Positions 32,691 to 42,015 of a stretch of 64,000 bases of DNA are shown piece by piece. The notes under the pieces are model-generated. The model had not been told where the DNA came from. It saw nothing but the letters and a program-made list of their open reading frames with translations, and searched no databases. Each line of letters starts with the position of its first letter. The stretch's first letter is position 1. The position numbers and the translations under genes are program-made. The DNA comes from Pseudomonas syringae (GTDB lineage: Bacteria; Pseudomonadota; Gammaproteobacteria; Pseudomonadales; Pseudomonadaceae): positions 36,100 to 100,099 of the forward strand of contig NZ_LGSI01000038.1 in NCBI RefSeq assembly GCF_001698815.1, written 5' to 3'.

Positions 32691-32714
32691 TATACCAAAA
32701 AACAATATTGTACA
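32691..32714 (+). promoter_or_regulatory. PplR1/LitR-type operator upstream of renalase
   Basis: TATACC (32691-32696), 12 bases, TGTACA (32709-32714). This matches the published P. putida PplR1 direct repeat T(G/A)TACA-N12-TGTACA with one mismatch. It lies 48 bases before the renalase ATG. TTGTAC (32708-32713) with a 17-base spacer to TAGTCT (32731-32736) could be the overlapping promoter. Confidence 0.7.
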
Positions 32715-32722
32715 GGTTTTAA

Positions 32723-33960
<1,238 letters not shown>

Positions 33961-33970
33961 ATCCAGCTTC

Positions 33971-34060
33971 GGTCCGGAGCGAGGCTTGCCCGCGAATAAA
34001 TAGGTCAGTCGGCACACCATTGCCTGACCCGCCGCCTTCGCGGGCAAGCCTCGCTCCAAC
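33971..34060. repeat. REP pair, family A
   Basis: Inverted GGAGCGAGGCTTGCCCGCGAA-type palindromes with a 41-base spacer, between the TIGR02450 gene and the rudS promoter. Confidence 0.9.
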
Positions 34061-34076
34061 ACCCCACTACAAAACC

Positions 34077-34100
34077 TGTACAAATAATTTGACTTGTACA
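34077..34100 (+). promoter_or_regulatory. PplR1/LitR-type operator, perfect match
   Basis: TGTACA (34077-34082), 12 bases, TGTACA (34095-34100): an exact fit to the PplR1 direct repeat. The left half precedes and the right half follows the -35 TTGACT, so the repeat covers the -35 and the start of the spacer of the rudS promoter. Confidence 0.85.
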
Positions 34101-34116
34101 AATGCGAACCTATGAT
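34089..34116 (+). promoter_or_regulatory. Sigma70 promoter of the rudS operon
   Basis: -35 TTGACT (34089-34094), 16-base spacer, -10 TATGAT (34111-34116), placing transcription start near 34123 and a leader of about 50 bases. A LitR-type operator is embedded in it. Confidence 0.72.
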
Positions 34117-34126
34117 GGACTGAAGT

Positions 34127-34150
34127 TGTACAGAGACTTAAATCTGTATA
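34127..34150 (+). promoter_or_regulatory. Second PplR1/LitR-type operator in the rudS leader
   Basis: TGTACA (34127-34132), 12 bases, TGTATA (34145-34150), one mismatch from consensus. It starts 50 bases after the first operator, just past the predicted transcription start, and could act as a roadblock or accessory site. Alternatively, TTGTAC with 17 bases to TAAGTC could be a second promoter. Confidence 0.6.
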
Positions 34151-34172
34151 AGTCCTGATCAGAGGTTTCGCC

Positions 34173-35135
34173 ATGACCACGCCTGCAGTTCATAAACCGA
34201 AGCTCGGCATCAGCGCTTGTCTGCTGGGCGCCGAGGTGCGTTTCAATGGCGGTCACAAAGAATCCCATCTGTGCACTCGTGCGCTGACCGAATACTTCGA
34301 GTTCGTTCCGGCCTGTCCCGAAGTCGCCATCGGCATGGGCATTCCCCGTGAACCGATCCGGCTGGTGGGCGACGCGGAAAATCCTCAGGCGCTGGGCAGC
34401 GTCAATCGCGAACTGAACGTCACGCAGGCGTTGGCCGATTACGGTGTGCAGATGGCCACCGAACTGGGCGACATCAGCGGCTATATCTTCATGCAAAAGT
34501 CGCCGTCATGCGGGCTGGAGCGAGTCAAGGTCTACCGGGAAAACGGCGCACCGGTTGATGGCGGCGGGCGCGGCATCTATGCCCAGGCGTTTTGTGCGCG
34601 TCATCCCAACCTGCCAGTGGAAGAAGACGGTCGCCTTAATGATCCGGTGCTGCGGGAAAACTTTATTACCCGAGTGTTCGCCTATGCCGCCTGGCACGAA
34701 TTGCTCAACGCTGGCCTGACCCGACGCAGCCTGACCGAATTTCACTCGCGTTATAAATATCAGCTGATGGCCAACGACCCGGTGCAGTACAAGGCGCTGG
34801 GCAAACTGCTCGGCAACATGGGCCGCAGCGACCCGAACGACATCGCGGCGCAGTATTTCAGCGACCTGATGAGCGCCCTGAAAAAATGCGCCACCCGCCG
34901 CACCCACACCAATGTTCTGCAGCACTTGACCGGCTACCTGAAACAGACCATCGGCGCCGCCGACAAGCAGGAAATCCAGCAGCTGATCACTCAATACCAT
35001 CAAGGCATCGTGCCACTGATCGTACCGCTGACCTTACTCAAGCATCACTTCCGCCAACACCCCGATCCGTATGTGGCGCTGCAGGTGTACATGCAGCCCC
35101 ATCCGGAAAACCTCAGCCTGCGGAATGCGATCTGA
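34173..35135 (+). CDS. rudS: RudS-type tRNA 4-thiouridine desulfidase (TudS/DUF523-DUF1722)
   Basis: Two-domain protein of 320 residues. The N-terminal TudS (DUF523) domain has three cysteines expected to hold a [4Fe-4S] cluster: Cys16 in SACLLG, Cys48 in PACPEV and Cys113 in SPSCG. The C-terminal DUF1722 domain (about residues 185-310) has FHSRYKYQLMANDP and YKALGKLLGN. TudS-DUF1722 fusions (RudS) remove sulfur from s4U in tRNA, and DUF1722 binds the tRNA. s4U is the chromophore for near-UV growth arrest, so light control makes sense. This is the first gene of a long operon; a strong promoter with LitR-type repeats lies upstream, and AGAGG precedes the ATG. Confidence 0.88.
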   Translation: MTTPAVHKPKLGISACLLGAEVRFNGGHKESHLCTRALTEYFEFVPACPEVAIGMGIPREPIRLVGDAENPQALGSVNRELNVTQALADYGVQMATELGDISGYIFMQKSPSCGLERVKVYRENGAPVDGGGRGIYAQAFCARHPNLPVEEDGRLNDPVLRENFITRVFAYAAWHELLNAGLTRRSLTEFHSRYKYQLMANDPVQYKALGKLLGNMGRSDPNDIAAQYFSDLMSALKKCATRRTHTNVLQHLTGYLKQTIGAADKQEIQQLITQYHQGIVPLIVPLTLLKHHFRQHPDPYVALQVYMQPHPENLSLRNAI

Positions 35136-35138
35136 ACC

Positions 35139-36068
35139 ATGAATGAAATCCCTCCTCCCGATCACGAAAGTGACGCCGAGCCCGAGCTTGAAAGCGGCTG
35201 GCTGCCGATTCGTGAGGTTGCCCGGCAAACCGGCGTCAACGCCGTCACGCTTCGCGCCTGGGAACGCCGCTATGGGTTGATCGTCCCGCACCGTACGCCC
35301 AAGGGACATCGCCTGTATTCCAATTACCACGTGCTGCGGGTCATGAACATTCTGACCTGGCTCAACCGTGGCGTTTCGGTAAGCCAGGTCAAGCATCTGA
35401 TCGACAGTCGCCAGCCAGACGCCAGCGTGCCGGGCAACGATTGGGAAGCATTGCGGCGAACCCTGGTAACCCACATCGATGAACTGGCCGAACGGCGCGT
35501 GGACGACGTGTTCAATCAGGCGATGTCGCTTTATCCGCCGCGCACGCTGTGCCAACAGCTGCTGCTTCCGTTACTGGCCGAGCTGGAATGTCGCTGGCAA
35601 GGGCAGTTCGGCGGGCAGATGGAGCGCGTGTTCTTTTATTCCTGGCTGCGCAGCAAGCTCGGAGCGCGGATCTACCACAACAATCGCCAACTGAGCGGCG
35701 CACCGGTGTTGTTGGTCAATCATTCCGATCTGCCATTGGAACCCCATCTGTGGCTGACGGCCTGGCTGGTGAGCAGCAGCGACTGCGCGGTGGAAGTATT
35801 CGACTGGCCGCTCCCGGTCGGCGAGCTGGCCCTGGCCAGTGATCTGCTCGAACCGCGCGCGGTGCTGCTGTATTCGAGCAAGGCCCTGAATATCAGCCTG
35901 CTACCCAAGCTGCTGGCCAATATCACCTGCCCCACGCTGCTCGCCGGATCGGCCGTGCGCATTCATTACAACGAACTCAATGTGGCGCCGACCCGCATCG
36001 AAGGCATGGCCCTCGCGGAAGGTCCGCTTGGCGCGCAAACCGCATTGCAAGAGCTGGGGCTTATCTAA
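35139..36068 (+). CDS. pplR1: MerR-family light regulator, class II LitR/PplR1 type
   Basis: Transcription factor of 309 residues. The MerR winged helix spans about residues 21-90 (LPIREVARQTGVNAVTLRAWERRYGL). A helical segment and a Rossmann-like C-terminal domain follow, as in CarH/LitR. The cobalamin signature D-x-H-x-x-G of CarH is absent, so it should not bind adenosyl-B12. That is the mark of class II LitR (P. putida PplR1), which relies on LOV photoreceptor partners. It starts three bases after rudS and ends two bases before phr, so it sits inside the operon it probably represses. The gene symbol is by analogy. Confidence 0.85.
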   Translation: MNEIPPPDHESDAEPELESGWLPIREVARQTGVNAVTLRAWERRYGLIVPHRTPKGHRLYSNYHVLRVMNILTWLNRGVSVSQVKHLIDSRQPDASVPGNDWEALRRTLVTHIDELAERRVDDVFNQAMSLYPPRTLCQQLLLPLLAELECRWQGQFGGQMERVFFYSWLRSKLGARIYHNNRQLSGAPVLLVNHSDLPLEPHLWLTAWLVSSSDCAVEVFDWPLPVGELALASDLLEPRAVLLYSSKALNISLLPKLLANITCPTLLAGSAVRIHYNELNVAPTRIEGMALAEGPLGAQTALQELGLI

Positions 36069-36070
36069 AA

Positions 36071-37525
36071 ATGACTATGCAACTGCTTTGGCTGCGCAGC
36101 GATTTGCGCATTCACGACAACACTGCACTGACCGCTGCCATGGAACAGGGTCCGACAGTGGCCGTCTACCTGATCAGCCCGGAGCAATGGCGGCGCCATG
36201 ACGATGCGCCGTGCAAAGTTGATTTCTGGCTGCGCAACCTGGTGCAACTGGAAAAAGCCCTGGGCGGGTTGAACGTGCCTTTGTTGATTCGCCACGCTGA
36301 CACCTGGGATCAGGCGCCGGACGTGTTGCTCACGCTGTGCCGCGAACTGCACATCGCGAGCGTGCACGCCAACGAGGAATACGGCATCAACGAAACCCGC
36401 CGCGATGAGGCGGTGGCGAACGCCCTTGAGCAAGACGGCATCCACTGGCGCAGCTATCTGGATCAGCTGTTGTTCAAGCCCGGCACTGTGCTGACCAAGA
36501 CCGGCAATTATTTCCAGGTGTTCAGCCAGTTCCGCAAGGTCTGCTATGCGCGCATGCATCAGGCCATGCCACGCCTGATCCGCGCGCCGCACAAACAGCA
36601 GGCGCTGAGCATTGTCAGTGATTCGGTACCGAACCAGGCACAAGGTTTTGCGACTCCAAGTGCCGCGCTGCAAGCCTTGTGGCCTGCCGGTGAAGACGAA
36701 GCACAACGCCGACTGGAAGCGTTCAGCGACGAACAGATCAACTACTACCGCAGCGAACGCGACTTCCCGGCCAAGCCTGGCACCAGCCAGCTATCGGCGT
36801 ATCTCGCGGCCGGGGTGATTTCACCGCGCCAGTGTCTGCATGCCGCATTGATCAGCAACCATGGCGAGTTCGAAACCGGCAGCGTCGGCGCAGTCACCTG
36901 GATCAACGAGTTGCTGTGGCGCGAGTTCTACAAACACATTCTGGTCGGCTACCCGCGCGTCTCGCGGCATCGGGCATTTCGTCCCGAGACCGAAGCGCTG
37001 AAATGGCGCGACGCCCCGCAAGAGTTGGCCGCCTGGCAACAAGCCCGCACCGGCCTGCCGATCATTGATGCCGCCATGCGCCAATTGCTGGAAACCGGCT
37101 GGATGCACAACCGGCTGCGCATGGTGGTGGCGATGTTCCTGACCAAGAACCTGCTGATCGACTGGCGTGAAGGCGAGCGCTTCTTCATGCAGCACCTGAT
37201 CGATGGCGATCTGGCCGCGAACAATGGTGGCTGGCAGTGGAGCTCTTCCACCGGCACCGATTCGTCGCCTTATTTCCGGATTTTCAACCCGCTGGCCCAG
37301 TCGGAAAAATTCGACGCCGAAGGTCGCTTTCTCAAGCAATGGCTGCCGGAACTGGCCGGGCTGAACAAAAAAGAAGTGCACAACCCGGCAGCGGCTGGCG
37401 GACTGTTTGGTGTGGCTGACTACCCGAAACCCATCGTCGATCTGAGCAGCAGCCGCGCCCGTGCCCTGGCCGCGTTCAAAGCGCTGCCCCATCGTCAACC
37501 TGCTGCCGAGCCAAGCCATGAGTGA
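36071..37525 (+). CDS. phrB: Deoxyribodipyrimidine photolyase
   Basis: Photolyase/cryptochrome protein of 484 residues that repairs UV-induced cyclobutane pyrimidine dimers with blue light. The N-terminal antenna domain begins LLWLRSDLRIHDNTAL. The FAD domain has LLWREFYKHIL, GLPIIDAAMRQLLETGWMHNR and the core NNGGWQWSSSTGTDSSPYFRIFNP, all typical of class I CPD photolyases. Only two bases separate it from the LitR gene, and its stop overlaps the next start by eight bases. A cryptochrome without repair activity cannot be fully excluded, but all repair motifs are present. Confidence 0.94.
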   Translation: MTMQLLWLRSDLRIHDNTALTAAMEQGPTVAVYLISPEQWRRHDDAPCKVDFWLRNLVQLEKALGGLNVPLLIRHADTWDQAPDVLLTLCRELHIASVHANEEYGINETRRDEAVANALEQDGIHWRSYLDQLLFKPGTVLTKTGNYFQVFSQFRKVCYARMHQAMPRLIRAPHKQQALSIVSDSVPNQAQGFATPSAALQALWPAGEDEAQRRLEAFSDEQINYYRSERDFPAKPGTSQLSAYLAAGVISPRQCLHAALISNHGEFETGSVGAVTWINELLWREFYKHILVGYPRVSRHRAFRPETEALKWRDAPQELAAWQQARTGLPIIDAAMRQLLETGWMHNRLRMVVAMFLTKNLLIDWREGERFFMQHLIDGDLAANNGGWQWSSSTGTDSSPYFRIFNPLAQSEKFDAEGRFLKQWLPELAGLNKKEVHNPAAAGGLFGVADYPKPIVDLSSSRARALAAFKALPHRQPAAEPSHE

Positions 37526-37940
37526 TTTCCTGCGGCGCTTCGCCCATGACTTTGCCGCGCTGGACAAAACCAGCCTGCATCGACTCGGCACCTTGTACAG
37601 CGACGACGCGGTGTTCACCGATCCGCTGCACAAGATCCGGGGCCTTGCGAACATGCAGGACTACTTCGCCCAGTTGTACGCCAATGTCACCCAGCTGCAT
37701 TTCGATTTTTACGGTTTCGATGAAGTGGCAACGGGCAGCGGTTACCTGCGCTGGACGATGAGTTACGCGCATCCGCGTCTGGCCAAGGGCCGCCTGATCC
37801 GCGTCGATGGCTGCTCGCACCTGCTCTGGCGAGACAAGGTTTATCAACACCGCGACTACTTCGATGCTGGCGCTTTGCTGTACGAGCACCTGCCAATCAT
37901 GGGTCGGGGCATTTCGTGGCTCAAAGGGAGACTGGCATGA
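37518..37940 (+). CDS. NTF2/SnoaL-like family protein
   Basis: Protein of 140 residues with the NTF2-like cone fold signature: the LHRLGTLYSDDAVFTDPLHKIRGLANMQDYFAQLY helix-strand start, then LRWTMSYAHPRLAKGRLIRVDG and a HRDYFDAGALLYEHLP end. Such folds bind small hydrophobic molecules or act as isomerases or cyclases. The start at 37518 overlaps the phr stop by eight bases. Its own stop overlaps the next start (ATGA). In related light or singlet-oxygen clusters a similar gene accompanies the furan-fatty-acid genes; its job there is unknown. Confidence 0.83.
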   Translation: MSDFLRRFAHDFAALDKTSLHRLGTLYSDDAVFTDPLHKIRGLANMQDYFAQLYANVTQLHFDFYGFDEVATGSGYLRWTMSYAHPRLAKGRLIRVDGCSHLLWRDKVYQHRDYFDAGALLYEHLPIMGRGISWLKGRLA

Positions 37941-38719
37941 CCCATCCGAACGCGCGTCGCATCTGGCTGACTGGCGCCAGCAGCGGCATTGGCCTGGCAC
38001 TGGCCGAGCAACTGCTCAAGGACGGTCATTTTCTGGCGCTGACCGCCCGGACCATCAAGCCCCTTGAAGACCTGGGAAACCTGTATCCCGGACAAGTGCT
38101 GCTGGCCCCGGGCGATGTCACCGACGGCGAGCAAGTCACGGCAATCGGCGACCGGATCAACCAGATCTGGGGTTCGCTGGATACTGCGATACTCAACGCC
38201 GGCACCTGCGAATACATCGACAGTAGCCACTACGATGCGGCGCTGTTCGAACGTGTGGTGCGCACCAATCTGCTGGCCAGTTCCTATTGCGTGCAGGAAG
38301 CGCTGCTGTTGCTGCGCCATGGCCGAGAGCCTCACCTGGTTGGCGTTTGCAGTTCGGTCACCTTCCTGCCGTTGACCCGCAGCGAAGCTTACGGTGCGTC
38401 CAAGGCCGGATTGCGTTACCTGTTCGAGTCGTTGCGCGTTGATCTGGCCCAGGAAAACATCGATGTCACCGTGGTCAGTCCAGGGTTTGTCGATACGCCG
38501 CTGACTGCCAAAAACGACTTTGCCATGCCCATGCGGTGGTCGGCGCAAAGGGCCGGCAAGCACATCGCCGAACGCCTGCAGCGTAGTCGCCGTCCACTGG
38601 AAATCGCCTTTCCCCTCCCCTTCATTTTGATGCTGCGCCTGTTGTCGCTGTTGCCGACGCGCCTGCAACTGGCGCTGGGCAAACGCATGGCACGCGCTCC
38701 GGCCAAGGACGCGCGATGA
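37937..38719 (+). CDS. Short-chain dehydrogenase/reductase
   Basis: Classical SDR of 260 residues. The nucleotide motif is TGASSGIG near residue 13 and LNAGTCEY stands for the NNAG motif. Catalytic Ser is in the GVCSSVTFLP segment, and Tyr/Lys are in YGASKAGL. The C-terminal 30 residues are hydrophobic and basic (LPFILMLRLLSLLPTRLQLALGK), suggesting membrane association. NAD(P)-dependent oxidoreduction is expected, perhaps of a lipid-derived substrate. ATGA overlaps on both sides bind it into the operon. The substrate is not known. Confidence 0.88.
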   Translation: MTHPNARRIWLTGASSGIGLALAEQLLKDGHFLALTARTIKPLEDLGNLYPGQVLLAPGDVTDGEQVTAIGDRINQIWGSLDTAILNAGTCEYIDSSHYDAALFERVVRTNLLASSYCVQEALLLLRHGREPHLVGVCSSVTFLPLTRSEAYGASKAGLRYLFESLRVDLAQENIDVTVVSPGFVDTPLTAKNDFAMPMRWSAQRAGKHIAERLQRSRRPLEIAFPLPFILMLRLLSLLPTRLQLALGKRMARAPAKDAR

Positions 38720-39963
38720 AAATCGCCATCATTGGCAGCGGCATTGCTGGCCTGACCAGTGCTTATCTGCTCAACCGCTCACATGACATCACGGTGTTCG
38801 AGGCGGCGGACTGGATCGGCGGTCACACCCATACGGTGGATGTACAGGTCAACGGTCGCGAGTACGCCATCGATACCGGCTTCATCGTGTTCAATGACTG
38901 GACGTATCCGAACTTCATTCGCCTGCTGGAAACGCTCGGCGTCGGGTTCAAGCCCACCGAAATGAGTTTTTCAGTCCGCGATCCAAAAAGCCGCACCGAA
39001 TACAACGGTAACAACCTCAATAGCCTGTTCGCCCAGCGCAGCAATCTGTTGTCGCCCAGTTTCTGGGGCATGCTGCGCGATATCCTGCGCTTCAATCGCG
39101 AAGCGCTGGATGACCTGCAAAGCCAGCGTATCGCCGCCGACACCACCTTGGGTGCCTACCTGAAAAGTGCCGGCTATGGGCAACGCTTTACCGAGCATTA
39201 CATCGTGCCCATGGGCGCGGCGATCTGGTCGATGTCCCTGGCGGACATGCTGGCCTTCCCATTGCAGTTCTTCGTACGGTTTTTCAAGAATCACGGGCTG
39301 CTGTCAGTCAACCATCGTCCGCAGTGGTGCGTCGTCGAAGGCGGTTCCAGCCGATATATCGAGCCGCTGACCGCATCGTTTCGCCAGCACATTCGTCTGG
39401 CCTGTCCGGTTCACAGCGTTCACCGTGGCGCGCAATGCGTGACGGTCAACAGTACGGCAGGTAGCGAGCGCTTCGATAAGGTGATTTTCGCCTGCCACAG
39501 CGATCAAGCCCTGAAGCTGCTGGCGGAACCGACCGCCACCGAGCAGGAAATTCTGGGCGCCCTGCCCTATGCCGAAAACGACGTGGTGCTGCATACCGAC
39601 ATCGGCCTGCTGCCCAAACGGCCGTTGGCATGGGCCAGCTGGAATTATCGACTGGGTGGCGATGCGCAGCAGATGGCCGCCGTCACTTACGACATGAACA
39701 TCCTGCAGGGCATCGAAAGCGACACTACGTTCTGCGTCAGCCTGAACCAGACCGCCGCCATCGATCCGCAGAAAATCCTCGCTCGCTACAGCTATTCCCA
39801 TCCGCAATACAGCCTGGCGGGCGTTGCGGCCCAGGCGCGCTGGCAAGAACTCAACGGCGCCAACCACACCTGGTTCTGCGGCGCGTACTGGGCCAATGGC
39901 TTCCACGAAGACGGCGTGGTCAGCGCTCTGCGCGTGGCCGCCGAGTTCGGAGAATCCCTGTGA
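38716..39963 (+). CDS. FAD-dependent oxidoreductase, UfaD-like candidate
   Basis: Flavoprotein of 415 residues with the N-terminal FAD motif IIGSGIAG (residues 5-12) and IGGHTHTVDVQ. The amine-oxidase-like body includes MGAAIWSMSLADMLAFP, and the C terminus has FCGAYWANGFHEDGVVSALRVA. Genes of this type sit directly before a CFA-synthase-like methyltransferase in furan-fatty-acid clusters. In Rhodobacter the flavoprotein UfaD desaturates the methylated fatty acyl chain. The same role is proposed here from the adjacency to the DUF1365 and UfaM-like genes. Starts overlap: ATGA with the SDR and GTGA with DUF1365. Confidence 0.85.
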   Translation: MKIAIIGSGIAGLTSAYLLNRSHDITVFEAADWIGGHTHTVDVQVNGREYAIDTGFIVFNDWTYPNFIRLLETLGVGFKPTEMSFSVRDPKSRTEYNGNNLNSLFAQRSNLLSPSFWGMLRDILRFNREALDDLQSQRIAADTTLGAYLKSAGYGQRFTEHYIVPMGAAIWSMSLADMLAFPLQFFVRFFKNHGLLSVNHRPQWCVVEGGSSRYIEPLTASFRQHIRLACPVHSVHRGAQCVTVNSTAGSERFDKVIFACHSDQALKLLAEPTATEQEILGALPYAENDVVLHTDIGLLPKRPLAWASWNYRLGGDAQQMAAVTYDMNILQGIESDTTFCVSLNQTAAIDPQKILARYSYSHPQYSLAGVAAQARWQELNGANHTWFCGAYWANGFHEDGVVSALRVAAEFGESL

Positions 39964-40760
39964 ACAGCGCCTTGTACAACGGCTGGATCAGCCACCGGCG
40001 ATTCGCGCCGAAGGCCCATGACTTCCGTTATCGGATCGGCCTGCTGTATCTGGATCTGGACGAACAAGCGTCGGTCTTCGGTTTATCGCCGCTGGCAGGG
40101 GAGCGACGATTTGCGGCGTTTTCCTTTCGTGAGAAGGACTATCTGCACGCGTTGACCGGACGCGGCGTGCCGCTGATCGAAGCCGTTCGCGAACGCGTCG
40201 GCGCGGCGCTCGGCCGTATGCCCCTGGGCAAGGTCTGCCTGCTGACCCAGGCGCGCAGCTGGGGTCTGGCGTTCAATCCGGTCAGTTTCTTTTATTGCCA
40301 TGAGCTGGACGGCACGCTCGCGGCGATCCTCTGCGAAGTCACCAATACGCCCTGGGGCGAGCGTTATCACTACGTGCTGCCCGCCAACGGCGAAGGTCAT
40401 CAGCATTTCGCGGTGGCCAAGGCGTTTCACGTGTCGCCGTTCCTGCCACGAGATCTTGAATACCGCATGAGTTTCAGCCAGCCCGCCGCCCGTCTTGGTG
40501 TGCACATGGCCGACTGGCAGGGCGAGCTAAAGATGTTCGACGCCACGCTGAACCTCGAACGCCAGGACTTGAATCGCCAGACGCTGCATCGTTATTTGCT
40601 GACGTTCCCCTGGATGACCGCCAAGACCTGTCTGGCCATTTATTGGCAGGCCGTGCGTCTGTTCATCAAACGTATCCCGATTTTTCCGCATCAGGCCGCA
40701 GAAGGCGACTATCGCACCGCCGCCGCGCAACCCAAGGACCAGCACCATGAAAAGCAGTAG
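39960..40760 (+). CDS. DUF1365 family protein
   Basis: Protein of 266 residues beginning NSALYNGWISHRRFAPKAHDFRYRIGLLYLDL, the standard DUF1365 opening. LLTQARSWGLAFNPVSFFYC and YVLPANGEGHQHFAVAKAFHVSPFL follow. No ATG fits. The GTG at 39960 overlaps the previous stop as GTGA and begins exactly at the family N terminus. Its 3' end overlaps the methyltransferase start by 14 bases. DUF1365 genes regularly stand between a flavin oxidoreductase and a CFA-synthase-like gene, implying work on the same lipid product, but the activity is unknown. Confidence 0.86.
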   Translation: MNSALYNGWISHRRFAPKAHDFRYRIGLLYLDLDEQASVFGLSPLAGERRFAAFSFREKDYLHALTGRGVPLIEAVRERVGAALGRMPLGKVCLLTQARSWGLAFNPVSFFYCHELDGTLAAILCEVTNTPWGERYHYVLPANGEGHQHFAVAKAFHVSPFLPRDLEYRMSFSQPAARLGVHMADWQGELKMFDATLNLERQDLNRQTLHRYLLTFPWMTAKTCLAIYWQAVRLFIKRIPIFPHQAAEGDYRTAAAQPKDQHHEKQ

Positions 40761-42015
40761 CAGTGGGTTTTCTGCCAATCTGGGTACCAACAGCCTGACC
40801 GCCAACCTCCTGCGTCGCGGGGTGCTGCGCCAGTTGGAGAAGTTACGCGCCGGGCAACTGATCGTCGTCGAAGGCGACGAGCGTCATGTGTTCGGCAGGG
40901 CTGGCGCGCTGTTGCAGGGTGAAATTCATGTGCAGGACTCGGCCACCTGGGGCATGGTCGCCAGCTCGGGTTCGATTGGTGCGGGAGAAGCCTTTATTCA
41001 TGGTTACTGGACTTCGCCGGACCTGACCGCAGTGATCCGGGTTTTCGTCAGCAATCTGGATGTGCTCGATGGCATGGAAGGCGGCATGGCGCGTCTTGGG
41101 CGGCCGTTCATTCAGAGCCTGCACTGGCTCAATCGCAACACGCGGGAAGGCTCGCAGAAAAACATCGCGGCACACTACGATCTGGGCAACGAGCTGTTCG
41201 AGCAATTCCTCGACCCGACCATGATGTATTCCGCCGCACAGTTCCTCACCCCCGATGACACGCTGGAGCAGGCGCAGCTGAACAAGCTGGAGCGCATCTG
41301 TCAGAAACTGGTGCTCAAACCGGATGACCACTTGCTGGAAATCGGCACCGGCTGGGGCAGCATGGCGATCTATGCGGCCCAGAATTACGGTTGCCAAGTC
41401 ACCACCACGACCCTGTCGAAAGAGCAATTCGCCTACACCGAAAAGCGCATCAGCCAACTGGGTCTGCAGGATCGAATCACCTTGCTGCTCAAGGACTACC
41501 GCGACCTGACCGGGCAGTTCGACAAGCTGGTTTCCATCGAGATGATCGAAGCAGTCGGCCATCGGTTCCTGCCGACCTATTTCAAGCAGTGTTCGCATCT
41601 GCTCAAGGACAACGGCTTGATGCTGCTGCAAGCCATCACCATTCGTGAGCAGCGCTACGAGCAAGCCAAGCGCAGTGTCGACTTCATTCAGCGCTATATA
41701 TTCCCCGGCGGCGCGTTGCCGTCTGTGCATAAAATGATCGAAATCGTCGGCCGTGATACCGACATGAACCTGCTGCATATGGAAGATTTCGGCCTGCACT
41801 ACGCGCGCACCTTGCGCTTGTGGCACGAGAACTTCAGCCACGCTCATGGCTATTTGATGGAACTGGGTTACGACGACTACTTCCTGCGCCTGTGGGAGTT
41901 TTACCTGTGTTATTGCGAAGGTGGTTTCCTGGAACGCACCATCGGCACGGCGCAACTGCTGTTGGCCAAACCGGCCGCCTTGCCGCAACCGCTGCTCGGT
42001 CGCTTCGATGCTTAA
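40747..42015 (+). CDS. ufaM: CFA-synthase-like SAM methyltransferase, UfaM-like
   Basis: Protein of 422 residues of the cyclopropane-fatty-acid-synthase family. The SAM motif LEIGTGWGSMAIYAA starts with Glu198. The family blocks AHYDLGNELFEQFLDPTMMYSAAQF, LLKDYRDL and SIEMIEAVGHRFLPTYF are present, with FLERTIGTAQLLLAKP at the end. It probably methylates an unsaturated phospholipid acyl chain. In P. putida the light-induced homologue is named ufaM for furan-containing fatty acid synthesis. The N terminus is longer than in E. coli Cfa-type catalytic cores. True cyclopropane synthase activity is the alternative, but the context favours UfaM. Confidence 0.85.
   Translation: MKSSSSGFSANLGTNSLTANLLRRGVLRQLEKLRAGQLIVVEGDERHVFGRAGALLQGEIHVQDSATWGMVASSGSIGAGEAFIHGYWTSPDLTAVIRVFVSNLDVLDGMEGGMARLGRPFIQSLHWLNRNTREGSQKNIAAHYDLGNELFEQFLDPTMMYSAAQFLTPDDTLEQAQLNKLERICQKLVLKPDDHLLEIGTGWGSMAIYAAQNYGCQVTTTTLSKEQFAYTEKRISQLGLQDRITLLLKDYRDLTGQFDKLVSIEMIEAVGHRFLPTYFKQCSHLLKDNGLMLLQAITIREQRYEQAKRSVDFIQRYIFPGGALPSVHKMIEIVGRDTDMNLLHMEDFGLHYARTLRLWHENFSHAHGYLMELGYDDYFLRLWEFYLCYCEGGFLERTIGTAQLLLAKPAALPQPLLGRFDA

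Follow-up and report, generated by a model that had tools for sequence, protein, structure and literature searches.

rudS, a probable light-controlled tRNA 4-thiouridine eraser gene, heads a LitR-photolyase operon in Pseudomonas syringae

The gene rudS stands at the head of a run of genes that includes a LitR-type regulator and a DNA photolyase, and the locus raises the question of whether its product is an eraser of tRNA 4-thiouridine (s4U) that is induced by light. An intact open reading frame of 320 amino acids (ATG to TGA), rudS occupies positions 34173-35135 (+) of the window, which is the whole stretch of 64,000 nucleotides analysed. A preliminary description of this DNA had proposed a TudS-DUF1722 fusion with the three cluster cysteines Cys16, Cys48 and Cys113, encoded by the promoter-proximal gene of a photoregulated operon and induced by visible light, before UV damage, as an anticipatory response. 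Taken as a whole, the data are best explained by rudS being a tRNA s4U eraser made mainly in the light under LitR/LOV control, a reading in which we place high confidence.

Pfam assigned residues 12-152 of RudS to the 2-thiouracil desulfurase family (PF04463, E 1.3e-35) and residues 195-311 to DUF1722 (PF08349, E 1.3e-41), which is the fusion of a TudS [4Fe-4S] desulfidase to DUF1722 by which membership of the RudS family was judged. The Fe-S cluster cysteines Cys16, Cys48 and Cys113 and the catalytic Glu, Ser, Ser and Arg (E50, S110, S112 and R59) are all present, as compared with the residues named in the available text of the RudS study (PMC11417400). RudS was aligned with 80 Pseudomonas relatives and with 54 fused homologues from a class-wide sample, the evener of the two samples used here, for which 60 of 63 listed matches were fetched (those omitted were the gene itself and matches in genomes G170 and G116) and in which a fused RudS was detectable at 54 of the 60 fetched loci. 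All seven residues, the three cysteines included, are invariant in 80/80 Pseudomonas relatives, and each is kept in 51 to 54 of the 54 class-sample homologues (Cys16 and Cys48 in 54, Cys113 in 53). The domain fusion and its cysteines, as first described, were thus confirmed by Pfam, by the residue check and by all 80 relatives. Asn25 is likewise Asn in 80/80 Pseudomonas relatives, but is Asp in 47 of the 54 class-sample homologues. The only solved relative of RudS found by sequence was TudS (6z92), which covers the TudS half.

The orthologue of Pseudomonas putida KT2440, RudS_KT (PP_0741), brought about a 26-fold decrease in tRNA s4U in E. coli and shortened the UVA growth delay from approximately 105 to approximately 60 min, and RudS overexpression slowed E. 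coli growth in the dark after 3 h (PMC11417400). By analogy with this protein, RudS of the window would be an orthologue-type tRNA s4U desulfidase, and a role in s4U erasure is well supported. The s4U writer ThiI, a usual rather than strictly defining accompaniment, is also encoded in the genome (PF02568, E 1.1e-59).

The sole sigma-70-like match in the region 33700-36200, TTGACT-N16-TATGAT at 34089-34116 (+; -35 at 34089-34094, -10 at 34111-34116, spacer 16 nt), ends 56 nt before the rudS ATG, with approximately 0.9 such matches expected by chance. Its hexamers and spacing are those of promoter P6650 of Pseudomonas mendocina, and by analogy with P6650 transcription is predicted to start at 34125 (+), 48 bp before the ATG. 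Two sites matching the LitR operator consensus T(G/A)TACA-N12-TGTA(C/T)A exactly are located at this promoter: site 1 (TGTACA-N12-TGTACA, 34077-34100, +) overlaps the -35 hexamer, and site 2 (TGTACA-N12-TGTATA, 34127-34150, +) lies between the predicted start and the ATG. The 6.6-Mb genome contains three exact operators, two of them at rudS, versus none for a reversed-pattern control; when up to one mismatch is allowed, the excess is weaker (22 matches versus 7 for the control). Four matches with at most one mismatch are present in the window, versus 0.04 expected from 100 shuffles, and comprise the two exact sites at rudS, a site at 32691 and a site at 37594 that falls within the SnoaL coding sequence and is probably of no significance. 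On the genome and window counts, chance was rejected as the source of the operators at rudS. Exact operators occur in 24 of 29 genomes (the organism's own and those of relatives), with 65 sites in total versus 5 for the control, and at least one operator was found upstream of rudS in 80/80 relatives (two in 52, one in 28), these being the best 80 of 274 and so the closest part of the family. An inverted repeat (33976-33994 and 34039-34057), REP-like in appearance when read by eye, also lies between the upstream genes and the promoter.

The gene order is rudS-litR-phrB-SnoaL-SDR-FAD-DUF1365-CFA, all on the forward strand, with gaps of 3 nt between rudS and litR and 2 nt between litR and phrB. 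The product of litR1 (35139-36068) is a class II LitR of PplR1-like type, in which the domain search found a MerR HTH and B12-binding_2 and did not find the other B12-binding domain. The CPD photolyase gene phrB (36071-37525) matches NCBIfam PRK10674 above its cut-off, together with PF03441 and PF00875. Probable further members, identified by Pfam, encode a SnoaL_2-like small protein (37509-37940), a short-chain dehydrogenase (37916-38719; the true start may be later), an FAD-dependent oxidoreductase (38716-39963), a DUF1365 protein (39966-40760; 5′ limit provisional) and a member of the cyclopropane/furan fatty-acid synthase family (40747-42015; PF02353), which is called UfaM-like from the gene order shared with P. 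mendocina. Both litR and phrB are present at 80/80 rudS loci among the best 80 of 274 relatives. It is highly improbable that rudS is instead transcribed mainly from the genes upstream, with the operators serving litR and phrB only. The upstream FAD and DUF2389 genes do share the strand of rudS, with 116 nt from their end to the first operator, and no terminator-like site was found on that strand between DUF2389 and the operator; against this, both operators precede rudS, the stretch from rudS to the start of phrB has no match at up to one mismatch, and the rudS-litR-phrB gaps are 2-3 nt. To judge from this arrangement, read-through is unlikely to be the main source of rudS transcription, and the placing of rudS as the promoter-proximal gene of the operon holds at the level of sequence, given the 3-nt and 2-nt gaps and the single sigma-70-like match before its ATG.

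On the same contig, 17-19 kb before the window begins, a short PAS/LOV protein is encoded that has the motif DCRFLQG with its Cys at position 53. Beside this gene, near folM-folE-folX, are a companion gene and a gene for a second LitR (LitR2), which is 35% identical to the first and has a Pfam match to the MerR domain only, B12-binding_2 not being matched. The short LOV photoreceptor and LitR2 are therefore both present in the genome, and because the LOV gene, the companion gene, LitR2 and a folM operator (TGTACA-N12-GGTATA) were all found, this genome has the components of the LOV-LitR switch described in print; LOV-LitR binding and anti-repression have been seen in vitro for orthologues (PMC9758184). 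LitR control of thiI was rejected, as no operator with up to one mismatch is present on its contig (C16). The third exact operator of the genome is on contig C15 (3387-3410 of L090), approximately 105-130 bp before a PAS-PAS-MCP gene and with a TATGAT box downstream, and is weakly kept in relatives. Leaving aside the PAS-MCP gene itself, none of the other 24 among the 25 fetched MCP matches has a site with fewer than two mismatches, and two-mismatch matches are found at a similar upstream place in relatives L206 and L208; the operator being poorly kept among the fetched matches, the gene was not added to the regulon.

Sequence alone cannot display photoregulation, which we infer for this operon from the operators and the orthologues. 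In P. mendocina, the nine genes PME6650-PME6610 were predicted from RNA-seq and qRT-PCR to form a single light-induced transcription unit, light induction of pmlR1, phrB and ufaM was seen by qRT-PCR, and phrB was induced approximately 27-33-fold (PMC9758184). The RudS study reports that rudS often occurs in light-responsive operons and names a LitR-controlled operon of PhrB, LitR and RudS (PMC11417400). Orthology, promoter anatomy and the published P. putida and P. mendocina work accordingly lend good support to light regulation and s4U erasure, the two central elements of the preliminary description. Its phrase of visible light preceding UV damage simplifies matters in part, as blue light and UVA arrive together in sunlight and UVA is absorbed by flavin photoreceptors too.

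A third LitR-type site, TATACC-N12-TGTACA at 32691-32714 (+), is located before the gene for an FAD-dependent amine-oxidase-like protein (32762-33748, +; PF01593), which is followed by a gene for a tryptophan-rich small DUF2389 protein (33745-33960, +; PF09493). The half-sites are fixed in 78/78 examinable relatives and always lie 71-73 bp upstream of the matched start, and the spacer occurs as 27 different sequences with 10 of its 12 positions variable. A binding site would be expected to show such a pattern, although the sequence departs from the published consensus at one position, and the FAD gene is a possible further member of the light regulon. The divergent yfcH-hemH genes could share this site.

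The reach of the light link beyond the genus was assessed in the class-wide sample and in a second, hand-picked sample, made up of 60 full-length loci from beyond the genus that had not previously been fetched, from which several further full-length matches were omitted and in which genome-rich, well-sequenced families weigh more. Within approximately 4 kb of the 54 fused RudS genes of the class sample, a photolyase was found at 12 loci, a LitR-like HTH at 11, either at 14 and neither at 40; by tblastn, at least one of nine light-type genes was present at 27/56 loci and none at 29/56. In the second sample, phr was within approximately 4 kb at 40/60 rudS loci (5 of them in the same family) and LitR at 17/60, and at least one of eight light-type genes was present at 44/60, comprising 44/48 loci inside the class and 0/12 outside it. 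The two gene sets differ, the eight lacking yfcH and the upstream FAD gene and including the LitR-type HTH, and missing neighbours are partly undercounted at contig ends, stretches of at least 8300 bases being available for 42/60 loci of the first sample and 56/60 of the second. One tally of the class sample relied on a gene caller that dropped nine loci, with loci lacking a DUF1722 profile match skipped; the counts given here are independent of that caller.

The coupling of rudS to light is genuine and common in part of the class, but does not extend to the RudS family as a whole; because none of the 12 loci outside the class and only 27 of 56 in the class sample have a light-type neighbour, the family is not solely one of light-response enzymes. 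These same loci without light-type neighbours (12/12 and 29/56, respectively) would fit a RudS that mainly recycles sulfur or strips thiolated marks from tRNA under general stress, with light as one of several inducers, as would the induction of the PP_0738-PP_0742 cluster in P. putida co-culture under unchanged illumination, for which the authors suggest another stress (PMC11014904). We consider this improbable, since an operator precedes rudS at 80/80 Pseudomonas loci and, according to the available text of PMC11417400, P. putida rudS has no part in the use of exogenous 4-thiouracil or 4-thiouridine.

Two further neighbours were noted in the class sample. A ferrochelatase gene, hemH, lies within approximately 4 kb of rudS at 9/60 loci, being just upstream on the same strand at seven of these (L165, L166, L187, L190, L192, L197 and L203) and also near rudS at L150 and L198. 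Neither photolyase nor LitR was matched by tblastn at any of these nine loci (a weak match to the photolyase profile is present at L187), and the unrelated window genes upp, uraA, hpt and murI, included in that search, have no match in the 60 class-sample loci. A hemH-rudS fusion was considered at L197 because a long open frame overlaps the hemH match, and was ruled out as the start coordinates 2297 and 2313 are in different frames. The second sample has hemH close to rudS at 5/60 loci, all of them in the window's own family, so that the lead was not repeated outside the family. Protoporphyrin, a known photosensitizer, is consumed by ferrochelatase. The proximity of ferrochelatase to rudS may reflect another light link or, just as well, a link to iron or haem; no link between ferrochelatase and DUF1722 was found in the literature searched, and the RudS paper does not mention one in the available main text (PMC11417400). 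A glutathione peroxidase gene is near rudS at 10/60 class-sample loci (L148, L161, L178, L179, L180, L181, L183, L184, L185 and L194), and none was listed among the 60 second-sample loci.

In the mechanism that we propose, class II LitR proteins would occupy the two TGTACA-type operators across the rudS promoter in the dark and keep the operon off. Blue light would activate the short LOV protein, which would bind LitR2 and so lift repression. The [4Fe-4S] cluster of RudS would then take the sulfur off s4U8 of tRNA, PhrB would repair DNA, and the downstream enzymes would probably modify membrane lipids. The most likely effect would be fewer s4U8-C13 cross-links and less growth arrest under the near-UV of sunlight. 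Light would, by analogy with the orthologues, lower s4U in the window organism; no report of such lowering in a native Pseudomonas host was found in the literature searched, and a drop in s4U after UVA has been described in Enterobacter cloacae (cited in PMC11417400). The lowering may be protective or anticipatory, and the anticipatory role is plausible and has already been proposed in similar form. Erasure could also carry a cost, because near-UV resistance of Salmonella is reported to need s4U (cited in PMC11417400).

The purpose of light-induced RudS may differ from protection of tRNA: it could silence the s4U near-UV alarm, with its growth delay and ppGpp, once the cell has photolyase, the gain being faster regrowth. 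Cross-linking of s4U is reported to trigger both growth delay and ppGpp, RudS overexpression shortens the delay (PMC11417400), and at 40/60 loci outside the genus the genes for the eraser and the repair enzyme are close together. The predictions overlap with those of plain protection, however, and photolyase is within approximately 4 kb at only 12/54 fused RudS loci of the class sample, so that we regard alarm silencing as a genuine contender that falls somewhat short of being the favoured account.

A light-inducible eraser of tRNA s4U, our preferred reading, restates a published hypothesis and is not a new concept, light-inducible s4U de-modification having been put forward as speculation in the available text of the 2024 RudS paper (PMC11417400). 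What is added here is one more orthologue, a single genome in which all the parts are found, and data on conservation. If confirmed in vivo, an environmental signal would alter tRNA modification through induced erasure, and the near-UV growth delay would gain a genetic off-switch.

Compared with known systems, the closest counterpart is RudS_KT, which has the same domain fusion, cluster cysteines and catalytic Glu, Ser, Ser and Arg, and whose gene is likewise in an operon with litR and phrB; the comparison was made by the residues named in PMC11417400. With an offset of one, Cys17, Cys49 and Cys114 of RudS_KT correspond to Cys16, Cys48 and Cys113 of the window protein, and Glu51, Arg60, Ser111 and Ser113 to E50, R59, S110 and S112. 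Arg24, Asn26 and Arg244 correspond to R23, N25 and R242, with R242 placed by local motif, as is T241, the counterpart of Ser243. Tyr25 is replaced by Phe24, and the Y25F substitution was neutral in P. putida RudS (PMC11417400).

The PmlR1/phrB operon of P. mendocina NBRC 14162 (PME6650-PME6610) matches the window in gene order by annotation, and PME6650 is identified as rudS by inference from this order and from the citation in PMC11417400 for the PhrB, LitR and RudS operon. P6650, which was footprinted with PmlR2 and whose start was mapped 48 bp upstream of the ATG (PMC9758184), has the same -35 and -10 hexamers separated by N16 and two operators at corresponding places; the start-to-ATG distance is the same if the window start is indeed 48 bp before the ATG. 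The second half of site 2 is TGTATA in the window, unlike in P6650, and is still within the PplR1 consensus. As in the PmSB-LOV/PmlR2 switch, a short LOV gene (Cys53), a companion gene and LitR2 occur together in the window genome, whose folM operator has the form reported for P. mendocina folM; B12-binding_2 is reported for PmlR2, whereas LitR2 of the window genome has no Pfam match to it.

In E. coli K-12, a stand-alone DUF1722 gene, ybgA, overlaps the phr start by 4 nt (L229, 2502-4426), and unlike in the rudS-phr pair the TudS half is missing, a remnant-like arrangement; YbgA did not lower s4U (PMC11417400). It is conceivable, and we suggest it tentatively, that blue light shifts cells carrying the rudS operon from an s4U/ppGpp response of stopping and waiting to one of repairing and continuing to grow, the tRNA photosensor being erased while photolyase is built, and that E. 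coli, with the DUF1722-photolyase pair alone, has lost this switch and kept the classical growth delay.
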